Source of the DNA: Sulfurimonas sp.
Lineage (GTDB): Bacteria > Campylobacterota > Campylobacteria > Campylobacterales > Sulfurimonadaceae
Assembly (NCBI GenBank): GCA_021648405.1
Contig: JAKISX010000001.1
Coordinates: 1-64,000, forward strand
DNA length: 64,000 nucleotides
Direction of reading: 5' to 3'
Shown here: one piece after another, positions 19,839 to 31,887 of the stretch
Position numbering within the stretch: position 1 is the first letter of the stretch
How the letters are laid out: the number at the start of each line of letters is the position of its first letter
Made by a program: the position numbers and the translations under genes
Notes under the pieces: model-generated
Database searches by the model: none
Told to the model about the DNA's origin: nothing
Seen by the model: the letters and a program-made list of their open reading frames with translations, nothing else

Positions 19839-20588
19839 CTATAATTTTTTAAGTAGCTCTTCTACACATCTTTTATAATCTTTCATTCCCTTTGAACGCT
19901 TCTCATCTAAAACAATAGGACGACCCTGCTCAAACTGACGAGCAAGTTTTATGTCAACTCCAATTGGACTTAATAGCTTTTCTTTGCCAAAAGATGTCTC
20001 TACTTTTAATAAAGATTCTTTGTGCTCATTAATATGAGAATTATACATAACAGGTAATATTGATATATCTGCTATATCTCTATCAAACTGAGATGCACTT
20101 TTAAACACTGCTCTAAGCATCTGTCCAACTGCTACTACACCCAAATGATGTGGCACAAATGGAATTAACACACTATCTGCAACTTCTAGTGAATTTTTTA
20201 ATTGCGCATCTAAAGTTGGTGGAGTATCTATTATGCAATAATCAAAAAAATCAGCTATTTTTTCTTTTTTAAAACGATTTTTCAATACACCACGCAAATC
20301 TGAATATTCATACACATCAAAAAAAGCTAAAGCTGGAGATAGCGTAAGATTTTCATGGCATGTTGGAATAAATGTTTCGCTTAATGTTTTTCCCTCAAAA
20401 ATAGAATGAACACCAAGGCTTTCACTTGGCTCACATCCAACACCAATACTTGCGTGACCTTGTGTATCAAAATCAAGCAAGAGTACTGGTCCTTTTTTAG
20501 CTAAGGAACTAGCTATATTTACGGCTGTAGTAGTTTTAGCACTACCACCTTTACGATTACTAACTACAATGGTTTTCACTAACAACAA
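19839..20588 (-). CDS. ParA/MinD-like ATPase
   Basis: 249 aa; deviant Walker A RKGGSAKTTTAVNIA, LLLDFDTQGHASIG, CIIDTPPTLD. GTG at 20579 is an alternative start. Confidence 0.93.
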   Translation of the reverse strand: MLLVKTIVVSNRKGGSAKTTTAVNIASSLAKKGPVLLLDFDTQGHASIGVGCEPSESLGVHSIFEGKTLSETFIPTCHENLTLSPALAFFDVYEYSDLRGVLKNRFKKEKIADFFDYCIIDTPPTLDAQLKNSLEVADSVLIPFVPHHLGVVAVGQMLRAVFKSASQFDRDIADISILPVMYNSHINEHKESLLKVETSFGKEKLLSPIGVDIKLARQFEQGRPIVLDEKRSKGMKDYKRCVEELLKKL

Positions 20589-20835
20589 ATCCTTTTAAAA
20601 CACTTTCATAAATATATTTGGAATCTCCAAATTCATAAGAAGCAGTATAACTTTTTTTATAAGCTAATACAAGCTGAAGCACTGCTAAGTGAACATCCTT
20701 ACAATCTTTAAAATCAAAAACAACTCCCTCTCCAGCTTTTTCTTGTAAATAGTCTCTCAAAGTTCCTATCTCATCTTCATATATAACTGCATTAAATTTT
20801 ACTGTATTGTTAATATCATCATATACTGTACCCAT
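20560..20835 (-). CDS. STAS-like domain protein
   Basis: 91 aa; VVFDFKDCKDVHLAVLQLVLAYKK resembles the STAS core. Confidence 0.6.
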   Translation of the reverse strand: MGTVYDDINNTVKFNAVIYEDEIGTLRDYLQEKAGEGVVFDFKDCKDVHLAVLQLVLAYKKSYTASYEFGDSKYIYESVLKGFVVSENHCS

Positions 20836-20844
20836 ATAAACTCC

Positions 20845-21600
20845 TTATTTTGGTAATCTTAGCTTAGAGATAACATTTATTAAAATATTATCAATATCTA
20901 AAATTCCTTCTATATCTAAAAATTCATTTTTTTTATGTTCTTCATCTCCACTCATTATATCACTTTCTTGTATATGCGCAATATCATCAATTTTATCAAT
21001 TTTTATAGCAAAAATATTATCCTCATTTTCATATATTAACAATTTTTGTAATGAATTTGCGACACTTTGCATCTCTAAAACAAAAGCATCTAAAGTGTTG
21101 ATAGTTTGTGTGTAAATAACTTTTATCTCATTTTCAAAAATATTTCTAGCAACTTTTGCATCTTTTTTATATATCTCTAAAACTTCTTCACCTCGTAAAT
21201 GAAGTTTTTTATGATACTTTAATAGTTTTACTGATATTTCAAAGACTCTGTCATCATAAGAAGAAAAATCATCAATCCATTTTCCTAGTTCACAAATATG
21301 TGGACTTGTAGATTTTACATCCTCATATAATGAAGCTTTTAGTGAGGTTATCCAAACTAAATAATCTTTTTTAAATTTTTTAAATAACTCAATAAGTTCT
21401 AATTCATAATCAGTAATTCCAATTAATTTTCTAAAATTTAATATTTTTATAATTTTATCTTCATACGACATTATTCCATCTATAAAATCATGAGAGGTAG
21501 GAATTTTTGCTAATTGTGGTACTTGAATAATTCTCTCTATATTATCAATTTTTAAAGCATATTTATTATTAACTACACTAAAAACTATTAAATCAATCAT
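20845..21600 (-). CDS. CheW-like protein with inserted CZB-like domain
   Basis: 251 aa; CheW halves at both ends; middle has CELGKW and HKKLH (CxxGKW and HxxxH patterns of CZB). Confidence 0.75.
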   Translation of the reverse strand: MIDLIVFSVVNNKYALKIDNIERIIQVPQLAKIPTSHDFIDGIMSYEDKIIKILNFRKLIGITDYELELIELFKKFKKDYLVWITSLKASLYEDVKSTSPHICELGKWIDDFSSYDDRVFEISVKLLKYHKKLHLRGEEVLEIYKKDAKVARNIFENEIKVIYTQTINTLDAFVLEMQSVANSLQKLLIYENEDNIFAIKIDKIDDIAHIQESDIMSGDEEHKKNEFLDIEGILDIDNILINVISKLRLPK

Positions 21601-21611
21601 TTTTTTTGCCT

Positions 21612-24290
21612 TTATGCAACTGCTTCATCTTTTTTGAGATGTTGTGAAATTTTCAATAAGCCTAGTGGATCAATGGACATAATGATTTGACCATTACCGA
21701 GTAAAGCAGTACCACTAAATAATGGATGATTTTGCATTATACCAACAAGTGGTTTTTGAACAACATCAAGCTGACCAAGAAATTGATTTACAACAACAGC
21801 TAATAAATTGTCTTTAATATTTAAAACAACTATTGATAGTGGTTTAGTATCTATATCATCTTCATTTAACATGGACTTTATAAATAACAATGGAATCACC
21901 TCACCACGAATATATATAAATGGCTCATTATGTAAATACTCAATTTTAGATTTTTCTATTTTTACAGTTTCACTTACACTATCCATTGGAATTCCATAAT
22001 GAATTTCATTCATTTGAATATGAAGCAAAGATGATACAGCTAAGCTCATTGGAATTGAAAGTGTTATAGTAGTTCCGACATTAGCTTTTGTGCTGATATT
22101 TATGCTACCACCAAAAACATCTATTGATTTTTTAACAACATCCATGCCAACACCACGCCCACTAAATTCTGTAACCACTTCTGCCGTTGAAAGCCCTGGT
22201 AAAAGAACAAGTTCAGCCATTTCAGATTCATTTAAAGCATCTATCTCTTCTGGTGTCATAAGACCTTTTTCCAATACTTTTGCAGCAACTTTTTCAACAT
22301 TAATTCCAGCGCCATCATCAATAATTTTAATAATAATTTTATCTGATTGAGCATAAGCTTTTAAAGTAATTATCCCGCTAGCTTCTTTGCCTTTTTTTTC
22401 ACGAATATCAGGCATCTCAATACCATGATCTAATGAATTACGCATAATATGAATCAAAGGGTCAGCTAACATCTCAATCATATTTTTATCAAGTTTAGTA
22501 TCGCCACCACTCATATCTAATTTTACTTTTTTACCCATTTTTTTAGATATATCGCGAACAAGTTTAGGATATCTATCAAATACATAAGATATTGGTAACA
22601 TTCTCATACCCATAATCAAATCTTGAAGTTGTTCTGATAAACGATTTATAAATATATATTTTTCCATTATTTCGCGTTTAATCATATCGTGTGTCATACT
22701 TACAACATTATCAGCTAAATATGGAAGTGAGTTTTTAGCTACAAGCAGTTCTCCTACAACATTCATCAAGCTATCGATAGACTCTTGCTCTATTTTAACA
22801 GTTTTTCCAATAACTGCTTTTTTAGTTTCTTTTTTAACTTCTACATTCTTTTCTTTTTTAACTTCTGCTTTAACTTCAACTTCTTGATTTTGTTCAGTAT
22901 CAATTTTTATTTCATCTTTAGAAAGTTTTTTACTTAAAAATTCCATCAATTCATCTTTAGAATTAAATTTTGAAGGTATCTCTGGAATGTATTGCTTCAT
23001 CTTATAGAGTATCTCACTCACTCTAGCAACATCATCATCACTCTCAACAAATTCTAAAGCATTATATTGTTGCTCTAACATACCATTTAGTATGGTTTGA
23101 GTAATTTCATCAGCTTGTTTTATTTCATCTTCTTTAACTATAGAGATTTCTTCAGGCTTATTTTCATCTGTTTGTGCCTCTTTTGTTATCTCTAAAGCAT
23201 CATCTACAGCTACATTTTTTGGAAAGTAAACTTCACCCTTATAAATATTTTTAAAAAACATATTCAATTTAGCTGTATCTTCATCTTTAATAAGCCCATA
23301 AATATCTAAAAATCTTTGAAGTTGTGCGTGTTGAAGTGAGTCTTGCCCTACCAACTCTAATGATTTAGCAACTTTATCACTTATGCTATTTAGATCAAGA
23401 GTATCTGTAATACCGCTTAGTTCTTTAAGAGAATCTATCTGATGAGCACCATCACCACTATCTACTTGAAGAAGTGTCTCAATATCTAATGGTAAAACTT
23501 CCATCTCATCACTAAAATTAAACAACTCTTCTTCTATCTCATCGTAAACCCCATAAACAAATGCAACCAAATAAGTTTTAAGCAACAAACCTTCTTCATC
23601 TTCAGTCCCACTAAGAACTGCTTTGGAATTTTCAACACTCATGCAAGCATATACACCAAGTACACTATCTCCAAGTAATGAAAGTGCATATAACGGGTCA
23701 TTACCATAAACCATGCATGATTCATCTATATCTAAGATAATTCCATAAAAGTTTTCACTATCACAAAAATCTTGATTTATCTCATCTAAATTAAAGTTAA
23801 CTTTTTTATGCTTAACTCCGCTTAATGCTTTTAAAGACAGATCAACTATGCTAGATTTATCATCAATTAATATAAAAGGTGAACTCCATTGCACTTCTTC
23901 ATCTTGAGGGTTTTTTCCCATTAAGGTATTAAGATTTGTTACTATTGAATTCACTTTTTCTTCATCAGCATCTATAATTTCGCAACTCTCTTCAGCAGCC
24001 TCTACAAGATTTAAAACCTCATCAAAAGCATCATAAAGAGCTTCTATCATTCCATCTGCTAATTCTAACCTACCATCACGAAGCATATCTAACAAATCCT
24101 CAGCACAATGGGTAATATCTCTTACAGAATCAAAACCAACAATTCCACTTCCACCTTTTAAAGTATGCGCTGCGCGAAATACAGAGTTGAGTAATTCAGG
24201 ATCAGCACCTCCAATATCTTCAATATTTTGGTCAATAAATGCTAAATTTTCTCTTGCTTCACCTAAAAATTGTTCTAATAACTGATCCAT
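21612..24290 (-). CDS. cheA: Chemotaxis histidine kinase CheA
   Basis: 892 aa; Hpt FRAAHTLKGGSGIVGF, HIMRNSLDHGIE N-box, GRGVGMDVVKK, C-terminal CheW-like domain. Confidence 0.97.
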   Translation of the reverse strand: MDQLLEQFLGEARENLAFIDQNIEDIGGADPELLNSVFRAAHTLKGGSGIVGFDSVRDITHCAEDLLDMLRDGRLELADGMIEALYDAFDEVLNLVEAAEESCEIIDADEEKVNSIVTNLNTLMGKNPQDEEVQWSSPFILIDDKSSIVDLSLKALSGVKHKKVNFNLDEINQDFCDSENFYGIILDIDESCMVYGNDPLYALSLLGDSVLGVYACMSVENSKAVLSGTEDEEGLLLKTYLVAFVYGVYDEIEEELFNFSDEMEVLPLDIETLLQVDSGDGAHQIDSLKELSGITDTLDLNSISDKVAKSLELVGQDSLQHAQLQRFLDIYGLIKDEDTAKLNMFFKNIYKGEVYFPKNVAVDDALEITKEAQTDENKPEEISIVKEDEIKQADEITQTILNGMLEQQYNALEFVESDDDVARVSEILYKMKQYIPEIPSKFNSKDELMEFLSKKLSKDEIKIDTEQNQEVEVKAEVKKEKNVEVKKETKKAVIGKTVKIEQESIDSLMNVVGELLVAKNSLPYLADNVVSMTHDMIKREIMEKYIFINRLSEQLQDLIMGMRMLPISYVFDRYPKLVRDISKKMGKKVKLDMSGGDTKLDKNMIEMLADPLIHIMRNSLDHGIEMPDIREKKGKEASGIITLKAYAQSDKIIIKIIDDGAGINVEKVAAKVLEKGLMTPEEIDALNESEMAELVLLPGLSTAEVVTEFSGRGVGMDVVKKSIDVFGGSINISTKANVGTTITLSIPMSLAVSSLLHIQMNEIHYGIPMDSVSETVKIEKSKIEYLHNEPFIYIRGEVIPLLFIKSMLNEDDIDTKPLSIVVLNIKDNLLAVVVNQFLGQLDVVQKPLVGIMQNHPLFSGTALLGNGQIIMSIDPLGLLKISQHLKKDEAVA

Positions 24291-24298
24291 AATATCTC

Positions 24299-24664
24299 CT
24301 AAGTCTCTACTAATATATCTACATAAGCTTTTAATTGCTCAGGACGAATTGGTTTTATCTCAAATAAATTTGCACCAACTTTATATGCTGATCGTTTATC
24401 TTCTTCTTTAGCTTGCGTAGTAATCATAATCACTGGAACAATTTTATAATTTTTCATTTTTCTAAGTTCTATAATAAATGAATAACCATCCATAATAGGC
24501 ATATTTACATCTACTAAATATAAATCAATATCATTATCTAAGCTTTTTTCTAATGCTTCCATGCCGTTTTCTGCTTCTATAATATTTAAACCAAATGATT
24601 TAATGATAGCACCATGATAATTTCTAACTGTTTTTGAATCATCTATAATCATAATATTTGCCAT
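24299..24664 (-). CDS. CheY-like response regulator
   Basis: 121 aa; IMIIDDSKTVRN, LVDVNMPIMDG, MITT, IKP. Confidence 0.95.
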   Translation of the reverse strand: MANIMIIDDSKTVRNYHGAIIKSFGLNIIEAENGMEALEKSLDNDIDLYLVDVNMPIMDGYSFIIELRKMKNYKIVPVIMITTQAKEEDKRSAYKVGANLFEIKPIRPEQLKAYVDILVET

Positions 24665-24692: not shown

Positions 24693-25082
24693 CTAAAAAA
24701 ACTCTATTTCATCTTCTTCTTTATGCGTAAGTTTGCCAGAAAAGGCATCTCTTTTCTTCTTAGCATCTTCTAATGTTAGTTCCAATTTTTTTTGTAGTTT
24801 TTCTAAACTACTAGTTACTACAATATCATCAGATTGATAGGAATTTTCAAAAACTCTTATGCTTTGCTCAACACTATTCATCGCTTCAATTGTAGCACTT
24901 AATTGTTGTGATATGATATCTTGATACTGTAAAGCTGTTGCGGCATTATCATCTAGCTCAACTTTAGAATTTTCAATAAATTTTCCAAGCATCATAGTAG
25001 ATTCGAGTGATAGTTTAATAGTATCCTCTTGAACCTCTTTAATATGCTCTAATAATTCTCTTAGTGTACTTAATATCATCAT
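24693..25082 (-). CDS. CheZ-like putative phosphatase (short)
   Basis: 129 aa; ALQYQDIISQQLSATIEAM carries a DxxxQ motif in a CheZ-like context; acidic/aromatic tail KEEDEIEFF. Confidence 0.6.
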   Translation of the reverse strand: MMILSTLRELLEHIKEVQEDTIKLSLESTMMLGKFIENSKVELDDNAATALQYQDIISQQLSATIEAMNSVEQSIRVFENSYQSDDIVVTSSLEKLQKKLELTLEDAKKKRDAFSGKLTHKEEDEIEFF

Positions 25083-25092
25083 CTTAATTCCT

Positions 25093-25464
25093 CTATGGAA
25101 GTCTTAATACTCTAACTATTGCTTGTTTTAATTGTGAAGGGTTAAATGGTTTTACAATCCATCCTGTCAAGCCTAAAGCTTTTCCTTGTTGTTTTAACTC
25201 AGGTTTTGTTTCAGTTGTAAGCATCAAACATGGTGTCCTGCTAGTTGAAGCAACTTCTCTTAAAGCCTTTAAAAATTCAAGCCCATTCATAACGGGCATA
25301 TTTAAATCAGTTATTATTAAGTCTGGTGTCATTCCAGCTTTTATTTCAGCTAATGCTACTTGAGCCTCTGTATATTGTTTAACTTCTATGGGCATTGAAT
25401 TTGTCACCATTTTGGTTGAGGCTAACGCAGTCTCACTATCATCTAGAAATATTACTAACGGCAT
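25093..25464 (-). CDS. CheY-like response regulator
   Basis: 123 aa; FLDDSETALAS, IITDLNMPVMNG, MLTTET, VKPF. Confidence 0.95.
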   Translation of the reverse strand: MPLVIFLDDSETALASTKMVTNSMPIEVKQYTEAQVALAEIKAGMTPDLIITDLNMPVMNGLEFLKALREVASTSRTPCLMLTTETKPELKQQGKALGLTGWIVKPFNPSQLKQAIVRVLRLP

Positions 25465-25473
25465 ATCTTCTCC

Positions 25474-26304
25474 TTATTTTTGATAAATTAATGTTTTATC
25501 AACTTTTATTGCATTAAAGACTGATACTATTCGACTCATATACTCAGCATGACCTAACAATACATAACCTTTTGGGTTTAGCATATCGTAAAAAGTCATA
25601 ACTACCTCTTTTTTTGATGCATCATCAAAATATATAAGCATATTTCTTGAAAATATAACATCAAATTTACCCAACTTTCGCATTTGAGCTTTATCAAATA
25701 CATTGACTACTTGAAAATCAACACTTCGCATTAAGTCATCACTAAGTTGATAACCTATGTTTTTTTTATCAAACCATTTAGCAAGTACATTTTTTGGTAT
25801 TGCATGGACTGATCTATCGGAGTATTTACCTTTTTTTGCTTTTTGAATTACAGTCGAATCAATATCAATACCAACTATTTCAATATCACGATGTTCAATC
25901 AACTTAGCTTCTTCTACAATATGAAGGACTATAGAATATGGCTCCTCCCCAGTAGAACATGGCGAAGATAAAATTCTAAGCGGTCTATTTTTTGGCATAA
26001 CCTTATCTAACTCTAACAACATAAATCCAACAAGTGCTTCAAACTGATCTTTTTCTCTAAAAAAGTAAGTTTCATTTACAGTAATCCCGTTCATAAGCTC
26101 TTGAAACTCTAAGCCTTCTTTATCTTTAAAGCGAAGTTTAAAAAAATACTTTCTAAAATTTTCAACATCAAGTTCTTGTGCTCTTTTATCTATATATTTA
26201 GCAAGTTTTTCATAATGTTTTTCTGACTCAAGATATAAACCACTTTTACGATATATAAATTCACATATTTTAGTAAAATTTTCATGAGATAATAGATAAG
26301 CCAT
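25474..26304 (-). CDS. cheR: Chemoreceptor methyltransferase CheR
   Basis: 276 aa; INVTVNETYFFREKDQF-type motif (NGITVNETYFFREKDQF), SSPCSTGEEPYSI, IFSRNMLIYFD, LLGHAEYM. Confidence 0.96.
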   Translation of the reverse strand: MAYLLSHENFTKICEFIYRKSGLYLESEKHYEKLAKYIDKRAQELDVENFRKYFFKLRFKDKEGLEFQELMNGITVNETYFFREKDQFEALVGFMLLELDKVMPKNRPLRILSSPCSTGEEPYSIVLHIVEEAKLIEHRDIEIVGIDIDSTVIQKAKKGKYSDRSVHAIPKNVLAKWFDKKNIGYQLSDDLMRSVDFQVVNVFDKAQMRKLGKFDVIFSRNMLIYFDDASKKEVVMTFYDMLNPKGYVLLGHAEYMSRIVSVFNAIKVDKTLIYQK

Positions 26305-26306
26305 AT

Positions 26307-26930
26307 TTAACCTTTTATCAACTTAACGGCGCCATCTACTGCAAATTGTGCATATGCATTACCAAAAAATCTATCTTTGAGCGATTCTAATAATTCTATA
26401 TTTTCTACCTCTCCAATTTCACCCATATAATCAACTGCTGTCATTGCTACATTTATATCAGTTTCACTCTCAAGTAATTCAACCAACATATCCCTAGATT
26501 CTGCAAAATTAACATCACCTAAAACATTTATAGCAAAAATTCTCAAATCCCTATCATCTCCAATTAAAAACTTAACTATGTAGTATTTAATTGCTGCACC
26601 AAAATTTTTAAGAATAGATATTCCTAAGTTTCTAACAAAAGCATTGTTTAATTTTAGCAACTCCATAATATCTTCTATTGGTGCATCTTCTGGGTTCATA
26701 GTTGCTATAACAGAAGCTATTTTTGTAGATGTGCTTTTTTTAATACTTTTATCATTAATTAAAGAAACTAAAAATTTACCACCATCTTCAAATTTTACCA
26801 TCTCTTCAATAGCATAGTCTTGTTTATCTTGTTCTTGTGCAGTCCTAAAATAAGACATAGCATCCCCAAGATTTTTAAAGATTGGTAGCTCTTCAACTAT
26901 TTGAGCTACATGATTTTTAATTAAAGCCAT
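26307..26930 (-). CDS. HEAT-repeat-like protein in chemosensory cluster
   Basis: 207 aa; DLRIFAINVLGDVNFAESRDMLVELLESETDINVAMTAVDYMGEIGEVENIELLESL. Confidence 0.7.
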   Translation of the reverse strand: MALIKNHVAQIVEELPIFKNLGDAMSYFRTAQEQDKQDYAIEEMVKFEDGGKFLVSLINDKSIKKSTSTKIASVIATMNPEDAPIEDIMELLKLNNAFVRNLGISILKNFGAAIKYYIVKFLIGDDRDLRIFAINVLGDVNFAESRDMLVELLESETDINVAMTAVDYMGEIGEVENIELLESLKDRFFGNAYAQFAVDGAVKLIKG

Positions 26931-26940
26931 TGCTATCTCC

Positions 26941-27999
26941 TTACTTAAATGTAATAATTTTATGTAAAATTTGTTTAAAATCTAACTGTTGGCTTACTCC
27001 ACCATTATCAAATGCTACCTTTGGCATACCATATATTGTAGCGCTATGTTCACTTTCACCTATTGTATATCCACCAGCATTTTTAATATTTAGCATCCCA
27101 ATAGCTCCATCATCACCAATTCCTGTAAGCAGTACGCCAATTACTTGCGATGGTTTTAATACATCTAAGACACTATTCATCATATCATCAACAGATGGTT
27201 GGAAAAATGATTTTCCTTTATCTTGTTCTTCACGAACAACTATTTTGCCAGATATTTTTTTATTAAACCTCAGATGAACTCCACCACGAGCTAAATATAT
27301 ATTACCTGGTAATATTTCCATGTTATTTGAAGTTTCATGGACATCTAAAACTGAATTACGATTTAACCTTGAAGCAAATGAACTTGTAAATTGTTCTGGC
27401 ATATGCTGAACTATACAAATTGGATATTTATAGTTTTGAGGCAAAGAGGAACAAATCTGATCTATCAGTCTTGGTCCACCAGTAGAAGATCCTATAAGTA
27501 TAATTTTTTCAATATCTATACTTGATAAATTTTCACTGTATTTAGATGAAGATTTTACTACCTTTCTCTTTCTTTTAGGTGCTGCTTTTCTTACTTTTAA
27601 TCTTCTTGTTGGTATTCTAGATAATGATTTTACTTTTTGTATTATTGATTCTGTATTTTGGGACCGACCAACATTCATAGTACCTGGTTTTGATATATAA
27701 TCAATCGCTCCTAAATCAAGAGCATCCATAGTAATACTAGCATCAGCAGTTGTAAGTGAGCTTACCATTAAAATTGCCGTCGGTTTTTTAGCCATAATTT
27801 GCTTAACAGCTTCAAGTCCATCCATAATAGGCATATTTATATCCATTGTAATTACATCATACTGAGTAGCTGTAGCCTTATCAACCGCTTCTTGCCCATT
27901 TTTTGCAGTATCAATTTCATAGCCCAACTCTTTAATCATATCTGTTAGTTGTTTTCTAACTAATGCTGAGTCATCAACTATTAAAATTTTCTTAGCCAT
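26941..27999 (-). CDS. cheB: Chemotaxis methylesterase CheB
   Basis: 352 aa; receiver ILIVDDSALVRKQL, MDINMPIMDG; catalytic GSSTGGP, QHMPEQFTSSFASRL, GIGDDGAIGM. Confidence 0.97.
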   Translation of the reverse strand: MAKKILIVDDSALVRKQLTDMIKELGYEIDTAKNGQEAVDKATATQYDVITMDINMPIMDGLEAVKQIMAKKPTAILMVSSLTTADASITMDALDLGAIDYISKPGTMNVGRSQNTESIIQKVKSLSRIPTRRLKVRKAAPKRKRKVVKSSSKYSENLSSIDIEKIILIGSSTGGPRLIDQICSSLPQNYKYPICIVQHMPEQFTSSFASRLNRNSVLDVHETSNNMEILPGNIYLARGGVHLRFNKKISGKIVVREEQDKGKSFFQPSVDDMMNSVLDVLKPSQVIGVLLTGIGDDGAIGMLNIKNAGGYTIGESEHSATIYGMPKVAFDNGGVSQQLDFKQILHKIITFK

Positions 28000-29363
28000 T
28001 AGATACTCTTTTCTTTAATTATCTTTTGTATATCCATTTTTAAAACTAATCTTTTACCATTATCTAAGTGCAATACATCTGTTAAATAATTATCATCTTG
28101 AGATATTATCTCTTCTTTTGCTATTGATAAAATATCACTAACATTATCAACTACAAAACCAACTTTTGTATTGTCTATATTACATACTATTATTTTAGAA
28201 TCATCTTTAAAATATTTATCTATATTTAAAATATTTTCTAAAGATACTATTGGTACTATCTGACCACGAATATTTATAATGCCACTTACACAATCATTAG
28301 TATAAGCAACATCGGTCGATTTTTCAAAATCTATTATCTCTGCTACTATATCTACTTCAAACGAGTACTCTTTACCTTGAAGTTCAAAAAGTATAAATTC
28401 AGAAAAATTTTCATCACTTGCTTGGGTGTGAGTAACTGCATCATTTGAATCAACATAAGCTTCATTTTCATTTAAAATTATTTTTAAGACTTTGTCATCT
28501 AAAAATGAGATTAAGCTCTCTTTGTCATGTAAGACACCAGCTATCTTATTTTTTTCAAGTTCATCTTTCATATAATCAATATCTTCATTAATAAAATCTC
28601 TAATATCAAGAATTTCATCAACCAATAGACCTATTGTTTTATTATCAATCATAACTATAAGTATTCTATTTTTGTCATTTTCTTTTTGATTAAATTTATA
28701 ATATAAACGCAGGTCAATTACAGTTATCAAATCATCTCTTAAAGCTATGAGACCTACTATTTCATCAGCACTTCCTAAGATTTCTGTAAAATTTATATCA
28801 GCTAAAATAATTTCACGCAAATAATCTAATTCTAAAGCAAATTTTTCATTTTCCATCTTAAATATTAAAAATCTTTTGGAATTTTCTTGAATAACTACAT
28901 CTGCCTTAATTTTGCCATTATTTACAATTTTTGACTTAATATCAACTCTTTTGACTTTATCAAAAAGCGAATTTAGAGATAAAATTTGTATAATAAAATT
29001 TTCATGTTTATATATAGCTACAATAGAATCATCAACTCTATTTATATATTCTATTTTTGACTTATTAATTTGCGCTGTATTGTAAACTTCACTAACTAAA
29101 AGTGCATTTGTAGATTTATCATTTGTTAAAGTTAAAAGCCTGCTTTTTTCATCTGAAATATCAACTTGGGGCATTTGTAAAAGCAAATTTAAATCTAAAA
29201 CATTAGCAATATTACCACCAACAGCACTTAAACCTCTAACTTCATAAGGTTTAATAGGTAGTTGCATAATACTTGGCACACGAAAAATTTGACTTATATC
29301 TTCAGTAGATATTCCAAAGCTTTGTGTACCATTTTTGATGATAAGTATTTCAACTATTTGCAT
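27999..29363 (-). CDS. Protein with three tandem CheW-like domains
   Basis: 454 aa; three CheW-like units, e.g. RFLIFKMENEKFALELDYLREII...VGLIALRDDLITVIDLR and FILFELQGKEYSFEVDIVAEII...SGIINIRGQIVPIVSL. Confidence 0.85.
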   Translation of the reverse strand: MQIVEILIIKNGTQSFGISTEDISQIFRVPSIMQLPIKPYEVRGLSAVGGNIANVLDLNLLLQMPQVDISDEKSRLLTLTNDKSTNALLVSEVYNTAQINKSKIEYINRVDDSIVAIYKHENFIIQILSLNSLFDKVKRVDIKSKIVNNGKIKADVVIQENSKRFLIFKMENEKFALELDYLREIILADINFTEILGSADEIVGLIALRDDLITVIDLRLYYKFNQKENDKNRILIVMIDNKTIGLLVDEILDIRDFINEDIDYMKDELEKNKIAGVLHDKESLISFLDDKVLKIILNENEAYVDSNDAVTHTQASDENFSEFILFELQGKEYSFEVDIVAEIIDFEKSTDVAYTNDCVSGIINIRGQIVPIVSLENILNIDKYFKDDSKIIVCNIDNTKVGFVVDNVSDILSIAKEEIISQDDNYLTDVLHLDNGKRLVLKMDIQKIIKEKSI

Positions 29364-29388: not shown

Positions 29389-31269
29389 TTAACCTTGTTG
29401 AAGCTCATCTGCCATCACAGCTAATTCTTCTACACCATTACCAATATAAGATACAGTTTCTATAATAAGTTCGCTAGCTTTGCGTGATTCCATAGCATTT
29501 TTAGCACTAAGTTCAACTGCTTTTTGAACTTCACTAATGCCAATGTTTACTTGATTCATCCCCTCAAGATTTTGGTCATTTACATCTTTTAATTCTGTAT
29601 ATCTATCAAGTAAATCAACTAACATCTCTATAATTTTACTTATATCATGTATAAGTGTATCGATGTTTGATTGCTCACTTTCTTGTGAAGCAAGCAGGTT
29701 ACCCCAGTCATTTTTAACAGTATCAATTTCTGAATTCATTGATTCAACAATATCATTGATTTTTTCAGTGTTAGATTCAGAATCTTTTGCTAAGTTACGA
29801 ATATCAGAACTTACAACTGCAAAACCTTTTCCAAAATCACCTGCGCGAGCAGCTTCTATAGAACCACTAATAGCAAGCATATTTAACTGAACAATAGAGT
29901 TAGAGATACTACTAACTGTTTTATCAACACTCTTTGTTTCTTTAATTATTACTTGCAGTTCACTAGCAGCTACATTACCTTTTTCTATAGAGCCACTAAA
30001 AGCTTCTCTAATCTCTGTTACACTAATTTTAACAACATTAAAAGATACCTTTAATATATCAAAGTTACGACGAGCAATTTCAATAAGCTTATCAATATCT
30101 TTTGCAGCGAGCAGTCCGGCTTGAATTAGTTCTTTGTTTGTAATAGCGCTTTGATTTGTAGTGTTAGATGATGATTCTATCTGATTTAATGCATTTGTTA
30201 CATCTTCTAAAGCATTTTGAATATCCTCCATACTTCCGCCAATAGTATCAGCTGATAGTGCTATATCTTCTGCTGATTTCATAGTATCAGTTGAAAATTT
30301 TAATTCTTCAGCTAAATTAGAAAGGTCTTTTATATCATCTTGTGTTTGAGCAAGAGCATCTGATTGAATATCTATACCATTTAATGTTTTTTCAACTGAT
30401 AATGCTATCTCACTAGATGCTGTTGCAATATCTTGTGAGCCCTCATTAATTTTAGAAACTACATCGCTAAGATTTTGAGTATAAGTATTTACGCTTCTTG
30501 CTGCTTCTACTGAATAAACAGCTATTTTAGTTAGTTCTTCCATTTTGTTACTAAGGGCATCACCTTTAGTCCCATTTCCTGAGATTATTTTTGTAGTATC
30601 TCCAATGCTTGCAATAATTCCATCAATAGAAGATTGAATTTTTGTAACAAGTTCAGAGATAAATTCAGCATTTTTTTCACTCTCTCCAGCTAAAGCGCGA
30701 GTCTCATCAGCAACAACTGCAAAGCCTTTTCCATGCTCTTTTGCACGAGATGCTTCAATAGCAGCATTTAGAGCTAATAAATTTGTTTGATCTGCAATTT
30801 TTGCAATAAAACCAACAGCATCACCAATATTTTGTGAAGAAATTTTTAACTCTTCACTTTTTGTAGCTGATTGCTTAGCTACTACAACCGTACTATCCAT
30901 TCGACCAACAGAATCATTGATTTTTTTAACAGAGGACATAATGCTATTGCCTGTTGAAAGTGTTGATGATATAACAGTATTTATGTTTGAGTTCATACGA
31001 GTTATGTTTGAAGTGATGCTTTTTACATTTGCTAAGGCTTGCTCACTTGCACCACTATTTTCTTCAGCTGCAGTTGCAATTTGCTCCATTGAAGATTTTA
31101 ACTGCTCAATTGCACTAACACTCTCTTGTGCATTATCTAAAATTGTCATAGCTACACCAGCAATAGATTCACTAATTTGCTGCTGTTTAGCTAGTGTTCG
31201 CTGATGTCTTTTGTCTGAACCGCTAGATGCAGATGAGGTAGATGGGGTATTTTTTTTCACTAATGTCAT
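29389..31269 (-). CDS. Soluble methyl-accepting chemotaxis protein with two signalling hairpins
   Basis: 626 aa; hairpin 1 IADQTNLLALNAAIEASRAKEHGKGFAVVADETRALA; hairpin 2 LNMLAISGSIEAARAGDFGKGFAVVSSDIRNLA; no TM segment seen. Confidence 0.92.
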   Translation of the reverse strand: MTLVKKNTPSTSSASSGSDKRHQRTLAKQQQISESIAGVAMTILDNAQESVSAIEQLKSSMEQIATAAEENSGASEQALANVKSITSNITRMNSNINTVISSTLSTGNSIMSSVKKINDSVGRMDSTVVVAKQSATKSEELKISSQNIGDAVGFIAKIADQTNLLALNAAIEASRAKEHGKGFAVVADETRALAGESEKNAEFISELVTKIQSSIDGIIASIGDTTKIISGNGTKGDALSNKMEELTKIAVYSVEAARSVNTYTQNLSDVVSKINEGSQDIATASSEIALSVEKTLNGIDIQSDALAQTQDDIKDLSNLAEELKFSTDTMKSAEDIALSADTIGGSMEDIQNALEDVTNALNQIESSSNTTNQSAITNKELIQAGLLAAKDIDKLIEIARRNFDILKVSFNVVKISVTEIREAFSGSIEKGNVAASELQVIIKETKSVDKTVSSISNSIVQLNMLAISGSIEAARAGDFGKGFAVVSSDIRNLAKDSESNTEKINDIVESMNSEIDTVKNDWGNLLASQESEQSNIDTLIHDISKIIEMLVDLLDRYTELKDVNDQNLEGMNQVNIGISEVQKAVELSAKNAMESRKASELIIETVSYIGNGVEELAVMADELQQG

Positions 31270-31282
31270 TATAATATCCTTA

Positions 31283-31714
31283 TTAATCTAGTGTAGCGTA
31301 AAGCTCTTGAGCTTTTCTAACATCTTCTTTTGAAGGTTTAATTCTAATACTGACATATTTAGTATTTCCACTTTTGTCAATTGATCTAAGCACTGTTGCA
31401 TAAACCCAATAAAATCCACCACCATTACGAGAATTTTTTACATACCCAGTCCAAAAACCTTTGTTTTGTACATCATCCCAAAGTGATTTAAAAGCAGCTC
31501 TAGGCATCTCTGAATGGCGAACTACATTATGTGGTTCGCCTATTAATTCATCTTTTTTTAAATTTGCGATCTTTAAAAAAGATTCATTTGCATATACAAC
31601 AAATCCTTTTTCATCTGTTTCACTTAAAAGATACAAATCGTCATATAAAACTTCACCATCTTCTAAAAAAGTTAAACCCTCAGTACTGATGGCATTTTCA
31701 TTTTTCGACATCAT
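31283..31714 (-). CDS. Aer/CetB-like PAS domain protein
   Basis: ETDEKGFVVYANESFLKIANLKKDELIGEPHNVVRHSEMPRAAFKSLW; likely start 31714 or 31711 (RBS GGAGG) rather than ORF-track 31753. Confidence 0.88.
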   Translation of the reverse strand: MMSKNENAISTEGLTFLEDGEVLYDDLYLLSETDEKGFVVYANESFLKIANLKKDELIGEPHNVVRHSEMPRAAFKSLWDDVQNKGFWTGYVKNSRNGGGFYWVYATVLRSIDKSGNTKYVSIRIKPSKEDVRKAQELYATLD

Positions 31715-31887
31715 AAACCTCCGTTTAAATACATTAATTGCACAAGCATACATATATAAAACTAAAAGTAAATTTAAATAGAGTTTTTTTTGTAGATTAT
31801 TGGTAATATTTAAAATATATCACTTTTTTACCTATCTATTCTTATAAAATAATATAAATAATAAATTAATATGAAAACCAAATAAAA

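Follow-up and report, generated by a model that had tools for sequence, protein, structure and literature searches.

In E. coli CheZ, residue D143 contacts the conserved lysine of CheY, while Q147 positions the attacking water. CheC and CheX are likewise CheY phosphatases, and their fold and active site, like those of FliY, are unrelated to CheZ. The CheZ signature, AxxFQ combined with DxxxQ, is conserved in over 1800 CheZ sequences (PMC7750401). The F9 class of chemosensory systems, with a DosM receptor carrying tandem signalling domains and CheW3 as its signatures (PMC9321776), forms purely cytoplasmic, double-layered arrays (PMC9321776, PMC7534058, PMC7184735), the role and output of which are unknown (PMC7534058, PMC7184735).

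The window, i.e., the whole analysed stretch of 64,000 nucleotides from Sulfurimonas sp. (contig JAKISX010000001.1), revealed a chemosensory operon on the minus strand, to which all coordinates given here for its genes refer. It begins with a DosM-like cytoplasmic receptor of 626 aa with two signalling domains (29389..31269; two hairpin-tip motifs recognised by eye; PMC9321776, PMC7534058) and CheW3, a triple CheW of 454 aa identified by its ORF and homologs (27999..29363; PMC9321776). These are followed by CheB (26941..27999; ORF and synteny), a HEAT-repeat protein (26307..26930; PF13646), which occupies the same place in proteobacterial F9 clusters, CheR (25474..26304; ORF and BLAST synteny), CheY1, the presumed cognate response regulator (25093..25464), the CheZ-like protein CheZl (24693..25082), CheY2 (24299..24664), and CheA (21612..24290; Pfam domains Hpt, H-kinase_dim, HATPase, and CheW). 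Adjoining CheA is a CheW-like protein (20845..21600) with a probable CZB zinc-binding insert, which scored below the Pfam cut-off and sits between two CheW-like stretches. The operon ends with an ORF of 91 aa without Pfam match, STAS-like by eye (20560..20835), and a ParA family ATPase recognised by eye (19839..20588), the equivalent gene being annotated ParA in proteobacterial clusters. Since the receptor with double signalling domains and the triple CheW are the F9 signatures, and the gene order is that of F9 clusters, the operon was assigned to this class. Directly upstream of the receptor gene, a PAS-domain protein of 156 aa is encoded (31283-31753), which may provide sensory input; most relatives have an ORF of 135-162 aa at this position.

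A preliminary description of this DNA had proposed a minimal CheZ-like phosphatase of 129 aa between two CheY genes, much shorter than classical CheZ. The ORF lies where it was described, starts with ATG, and runs on the minus strand, which that description did not give; its neighbours are indeed receivers (PF00072, E 3.9e-21 for CheY1 and 2.5e-24 for CheY2), and with 129 aa it is well below the 214 aa of E. coli CheZ and the c. 220-270 aa of the F3-type CheZ of Campylobacterota. Its sequence includes ALQYQDIISQQLSATIEAM and ends with EEDEIEFF. Based on about 46 distinct homologs and the same gene order, CheY1-CheZl-CheY2-CheA, in 30 of 37 examined loci holding CheZl, we regard it as a real gene. 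Counted from the ORF start at 25082, the stretch A50-Q59 (ALQYQDIISQ, i.e., AxxYQDxxxQ) is encoded at 24906..24935, with D55 and Q59 as the presumed catalytic pair, while residues 124-129, the C-terminal tail DEIEFF as delimited by ORF sequence, conservation, and a tail survey, correspond to 24696..24713.

AxxYQDxxxQ fits the CheZ signature, its counterpart in E. coli being AQDFQDLTGQ. The motif stands above chance: in a census of 3126 distinct ORFs taken from the fetched loci, [AGVI]xx[FYH]QDxxxQ was present in 65, some 62 of which belong to the CheZl family, to the F3-type CheZ, or are the CheZ of E. coli, while the remaining three look like chance matches. Comparison of the CheZl family profile with that of 26 F3-type CheZ sequences via hhalign resulted in an alignment of 31 columns (probability 52.8, E 1.4e-4) in exact motif register (LQYQDIISQ against MQYQDIHRQ), which covers the motif helix only. 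None of 300 scrambled controls (150 column-permuted and 150 block-reversed profiles) reached its score of 33.6, the maximum being 23.4. E. coli CheZ also aligned with CheZl in register, though not significantly (E 0.26), and the N-terminal arms of CheZl and F3 CheZ revealed no similarity at profile level, as 49 of 100 permutations scored equally high. The E-values of hmmsearch from the CheZl family to F3 CheZ (8e-5 to 0.01) were discarded as evidence, since an unrelated coiled coil of 173 aa scored E 3e-5, and searches with CheZl against Pfam, NCBIfam, and PDB sequences gave chance coiled-coil matches only.

A search with the Pfam CheZ profile, suggested in the preliminary description as a check, turned out negative: PF04344 matched no member of the CheZl family, CheZl of the window gave no match at E<=10, and CheZ was not among the 25 most-matched Pfam families of 35 members, while E. 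coli CheZ as positive control scored E 6.3e-77. This negative is one half of the refuting condition named there, and it carries little weight, as the established long CheZ of the Campylobacterota F3 system does not reach the PF04344 cut-off either. In the tests made, the putative active-site helix of CheZl thus appears CheZ-like, and the protein falls outside PF04344. The preliminary interpretation is supported in part: the DxxxQ pattern, a docking-like tail, the association with CheY, and a profile match of the motif helix to F3-type CheZ stood, while the Pfam match did not. It had not recognised the F9 nature of the operon, the motif and tail on small chemoreceptors, or CheY1 as the probable partner.

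The AlphaFold2 monomer model of CheZl (35 sequences, pLDDT 85.2) predicted helices at residues 2-39, 45-84, and 89-115, while the tail 119-129 was of low confidence and disordered. The hairpin fold expected for a CheZ was thus predicted for the first two helices, accompanied by a third helix (89-115) besides. A model of F3 CheZ showed a long hairpin (69-129/134-200) and a C-terminal helix (226-237), and the catalytic Asp lies about 41 residues past the turn there, as against about 11 in CheZl. Foldseek with the CheZl model retrieved no CheZ, which is uninformative, as the model of F3 CheZ, run as positive control, failed likewise. The predicted geometry fits a CheZ hairpin trimmed at its tip by about 30 residues on each arm, for which the A. 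caulinodans protein offers a smaller precedent (PMC7750401); since the N-terminal arms revealed no profile similarity, this idea is left as a conjecture.

All CheZl homologs found belong to Campylobacterota and come from several families, the relatives of the source genome being mostly Sulfurimonas and Sulfurimonadaceae MAGs. Q52, D55, Q59, and Q60 were invariant in all 45 rows covering them, as were A107, G116, and F129 in all 46 sequences. These include the presumed catalytic Asp and Gln of the pattern read in YQDIISQ by the preliminary description, as well as the last Phe of the tail that it had likened to the CheY-binding C-terminus of CheZ. A50 (33/45), Y53 (40/45), and Q54 (42/45) were less strictly conserved. 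H13 in helix 1 was kept in 45 of 46 sequences, and none of the readings considered here, including the best one, accounts for this. Among 60 relatives, including the own genome, CheZl was present in each of the 14 CheW3-bearing genomes and in one of the 46 lacking CheW3 (Fisher p 9e-13, uncorrected for relatedness and with a weak match in genome G040 left uncounted). The latter match (locus L016) lies inside a long reading frame and was rejected as spurious. Thirteen of the 15 genomes with strong CheZl matches also encode an F3 CheZ, which suggests an additional phosphatase dedicated to F9 and not a replacement; the exceptions are G054 and the own genome, whose assembly (82% complete) revealed no F3-type CheZ by either PF04344 or the F3 CheZ profile.

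The one CheW3-less genome and four others carry a divergent CheZl in a different chemosensory cluster, mostly composed of CheA, MCP, CheW, CheV, CheR, CheB, a pseudo-receiver protein, and CheZl. The pseudo-receiver protein (350-366 aa; locus L123, 2157-3206; L127, 9721-10818; L129, 9944-11017; L136, 9811-10887) adjoins the divergent CheZl and shares its DDxLxFF-like C-terminal tail, suggesting a common docking site. One further CheZl is a solitary gene with TamB/Omp85 genes as neighbours, from a genome that is 99% complete and in which no CheR was detected; its D and Q are intact, and its tail has drifted to SELF.

For comparison, we read ten plasmid-borne proteobacterial F9 clusters; triple-CheW records of Ruegeria and Marinitoga gave partial clusters only. 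In the clusters of Methylobacterium, Sphaerotilus, Methylosinus, and Eleftheria, CheY and CheA enclose no gene, but each cluster encodes a small chemoreceptor (353-488 aa) that carries QxQDxxxQ close to its end and terminates in IELF (L071, 18909-20204; L072, 17837-19150; L073, 5864-7327; L074, 17253-18311). This receptor adjoins a response regulator of the cluster in all but Methylosinus, where it directly precedes DosM and the extra regulator lies at the opposite end. The putative receptor-fused module was recognised by motif and tail, the best HMM hit having E 0.02 without a significant full-length alignment. In the three Azospirillum clusters, the regulator is accompanied by CheC, and in those of Rhizobium, Agrobacterium, and Novosphingobium by CheX. 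Related F9 systems thus seem to carry either a CheZl-like module fused to a receptor or another phosphatase instead.

A strict tail pattern, applied to 456 non-overlapping ORFs from 25 loci, was found only in CheZl, the four small receptors, and the pseudo-receiver protein adjoining CheZl in the second chemosensory cluster, and tblastn with the receptor tail revealed no clusters beyond those already known. A looser likeness was seen in a protein of about 440 aa with a receiver domain, which mostly follows ParA in relatives and ends with DDIFDF (e.g., L018, 13585-14373; L035, 12944-14269; L128, 7921-9231; and about 15 others). It is absent from the operon of the window, and a search of the own genome gave receiver-level matches only.

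By eye, both CheY1 and CheY2 retain the acidic pair, the phospho-acceptor Asp, the Thr, and the Lys. In a tree of 43 receivers, for which the program issued a long-branch warning, CheY1 grouped with the extra regulators of Methylobacterium, Sphaerotilus, and Methylosinus (support 96/95), while CheY2 grouped with the F9 regulator between CheR and CheA (100/99) and is considered the ortholog of this proteobacterial regulator beside CheA; an earlier tree had given supports of 93/88 and 96/97, respectively. Joining CheY1 to the regulator between CheR and CheA was rejected (AU p 0.0275), and the Eleftheria regulator was placed elsewhere on a long branch. As CheY1 groups with regulators of clusters that carry motif and tail, it seems to travel together with the module. 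We therefore favour CheY1 as target of CheZl, with chances somewhat better than even, and its partner would probably be CheY1 rather than both CheYs.

Taken together, CheZl likely works like CheZ. On the strength of motif, tail, and gene neighbourhood, it is probably a response-regulator phosphatase of minimal, CheZ-like build that would be specific to the cytoplasmic F9 array. We infer binding, catalysis, dimerisation, and the CheY target as follows. The acidic-aromatic tail DEIEFF would dock on phosphorylated CheY, most likely CheY1, which is encoded directly upstream; D55 and Q59, both located on helix 2, would then enter the CheY active site and speed hydrolysis, with Q59 positioning the attacking water and D55 contacting the conserved lysine. 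The context supports a phosphatase through the motif and IELF end on small receptors, the grouping of CheY1, and CheC or CheX in other F9 clusters. Against this reading stand the missing Pfam match, a likeness limited to the motif helix, the short distance of D55 from the turn, and the conserved H13. Slightly less than an even chance is given to the wider idea of a modular F9 phosphatase, consisting of a DxxxQ helix and an acidic-aromatic docking tail, that would be free in Campylobacterota, receptor-fused in Proteobacteria, and tied to the same regulator lineage.

The main rival to the phosphatase is an adaptor for adaptation or scaffolding of the array, in which the tail would tether CheR (or CheB) like the NWETF pentapeptide. 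EIEFF and IELF resemble the pentapeptide of Tar/Tsr in their acidic residues and final Phe (PMC7390727), cheR lies in the same operon, and similar tails occur on the small receptors and the pseudo-receiver protein, more loosely on the DDIFDF receiver protein. In CheR-binding pentapeptides, however, position 2 is mostly W and position 5 mostly F (PMC7390727), while EIEFF departs from them in having Ile, not W or another aromatic residue, at position 2. In addition, a homolog exists in the genome without detectable CheR, though with the tail SELF, and a tether leaves the invariant D55/Q59 and the likeness to the CheZ motif unaccounted for; we consider it unlikely. Conservation of motif and tail would also fit a protein that binds CheY without catalysis and sequesters or localises CheY1 at the array. 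Yet the two residues that catalyse in CheZ are precisely those that are invariant here, and CheC or CheX adjoins a regulator in other F9 clusters without CheZl, making such a binder distinctly improbable.

The essentially invariant H13, together with a helical protein of about 120 aa encoded between two receivers, would suit an HPt-like phosphotransfer between CheY1 and CheY2, but there is no Hpt Pfam match, HxxKG is absent, the Lys two residues past H13 is variable, and neither D55/Q59 nor the tail would be explained, so that this is very improbable. A generic coiled coil bearing the motif by coincidence, finally, is hardly credible: the helical sequence is simple, and an HMM search with the CheZl family scored unrelated coiled coils on a par with F3 CheZ, but the motif census, the scrambled-profile controls, the invariance of D, Q, and tail, and the conserved operon already disfavour it.

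If CheZl is a phosphatase, the regulator to watch is CheY1, which differs from the CheY adjacent to CheA; two residues would suffice for a mutation test, and the protein would illustrate how few parts of CheZ are required. The common tail points to a shared docking site in the F9 array, and the receptor-fused form, if true, would amount to a chemoreceptor that brings along a CheY phosphatase of its own, with signal termination inside the receptor.

Among the closest known proteins is the F3 CheZ of Helicobacter and other Campylobacterota (the remote CheZ of H. pylori), sharing the [LM]QYQDIxxQ helix in identical register, a predicted hairpin, an acidic-hydrophobic C-terminus, the phylum, and usually the genome. 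It differs in its length, in hairpin arms about 30 residues longer, in an N-terminal region without detectable similarity, in its C-terminal helix (...IEALLAQFG in place of the short EIEFF), and in not being found in the F9 cluster. Proteobacterial CheZ (PF04344, E. coli) shares AxxFQDxxxQ, the pairing with CheY, and a C-terminal Phe. While that of E. coli is a dimeric four-helix bundle, CheZl is represented here by a monomer model, with a tail not predicted to be helical and without a match to the Pfam family. Phosphatases of the CheC/CheX/FliY type adjoin a response regulator in other F9 clusters without the CheZ-like motif. The operon as a whole resembles those of the F9 class (cluster I of Vibrio cholerae), with which it shares DosM, CheW3, CheB, HEAT, CheR, CheY, CheA, a protein of 80-90 aa, and ParA. 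Compared to proteobacterial F9 clusters, the Campylobacterota operon harbors an extra CheY1 and CheZl pair between CheR and CheY2, and the clusters read here have a receptor-borne motif, CheC, or CheX in place of CheZl.
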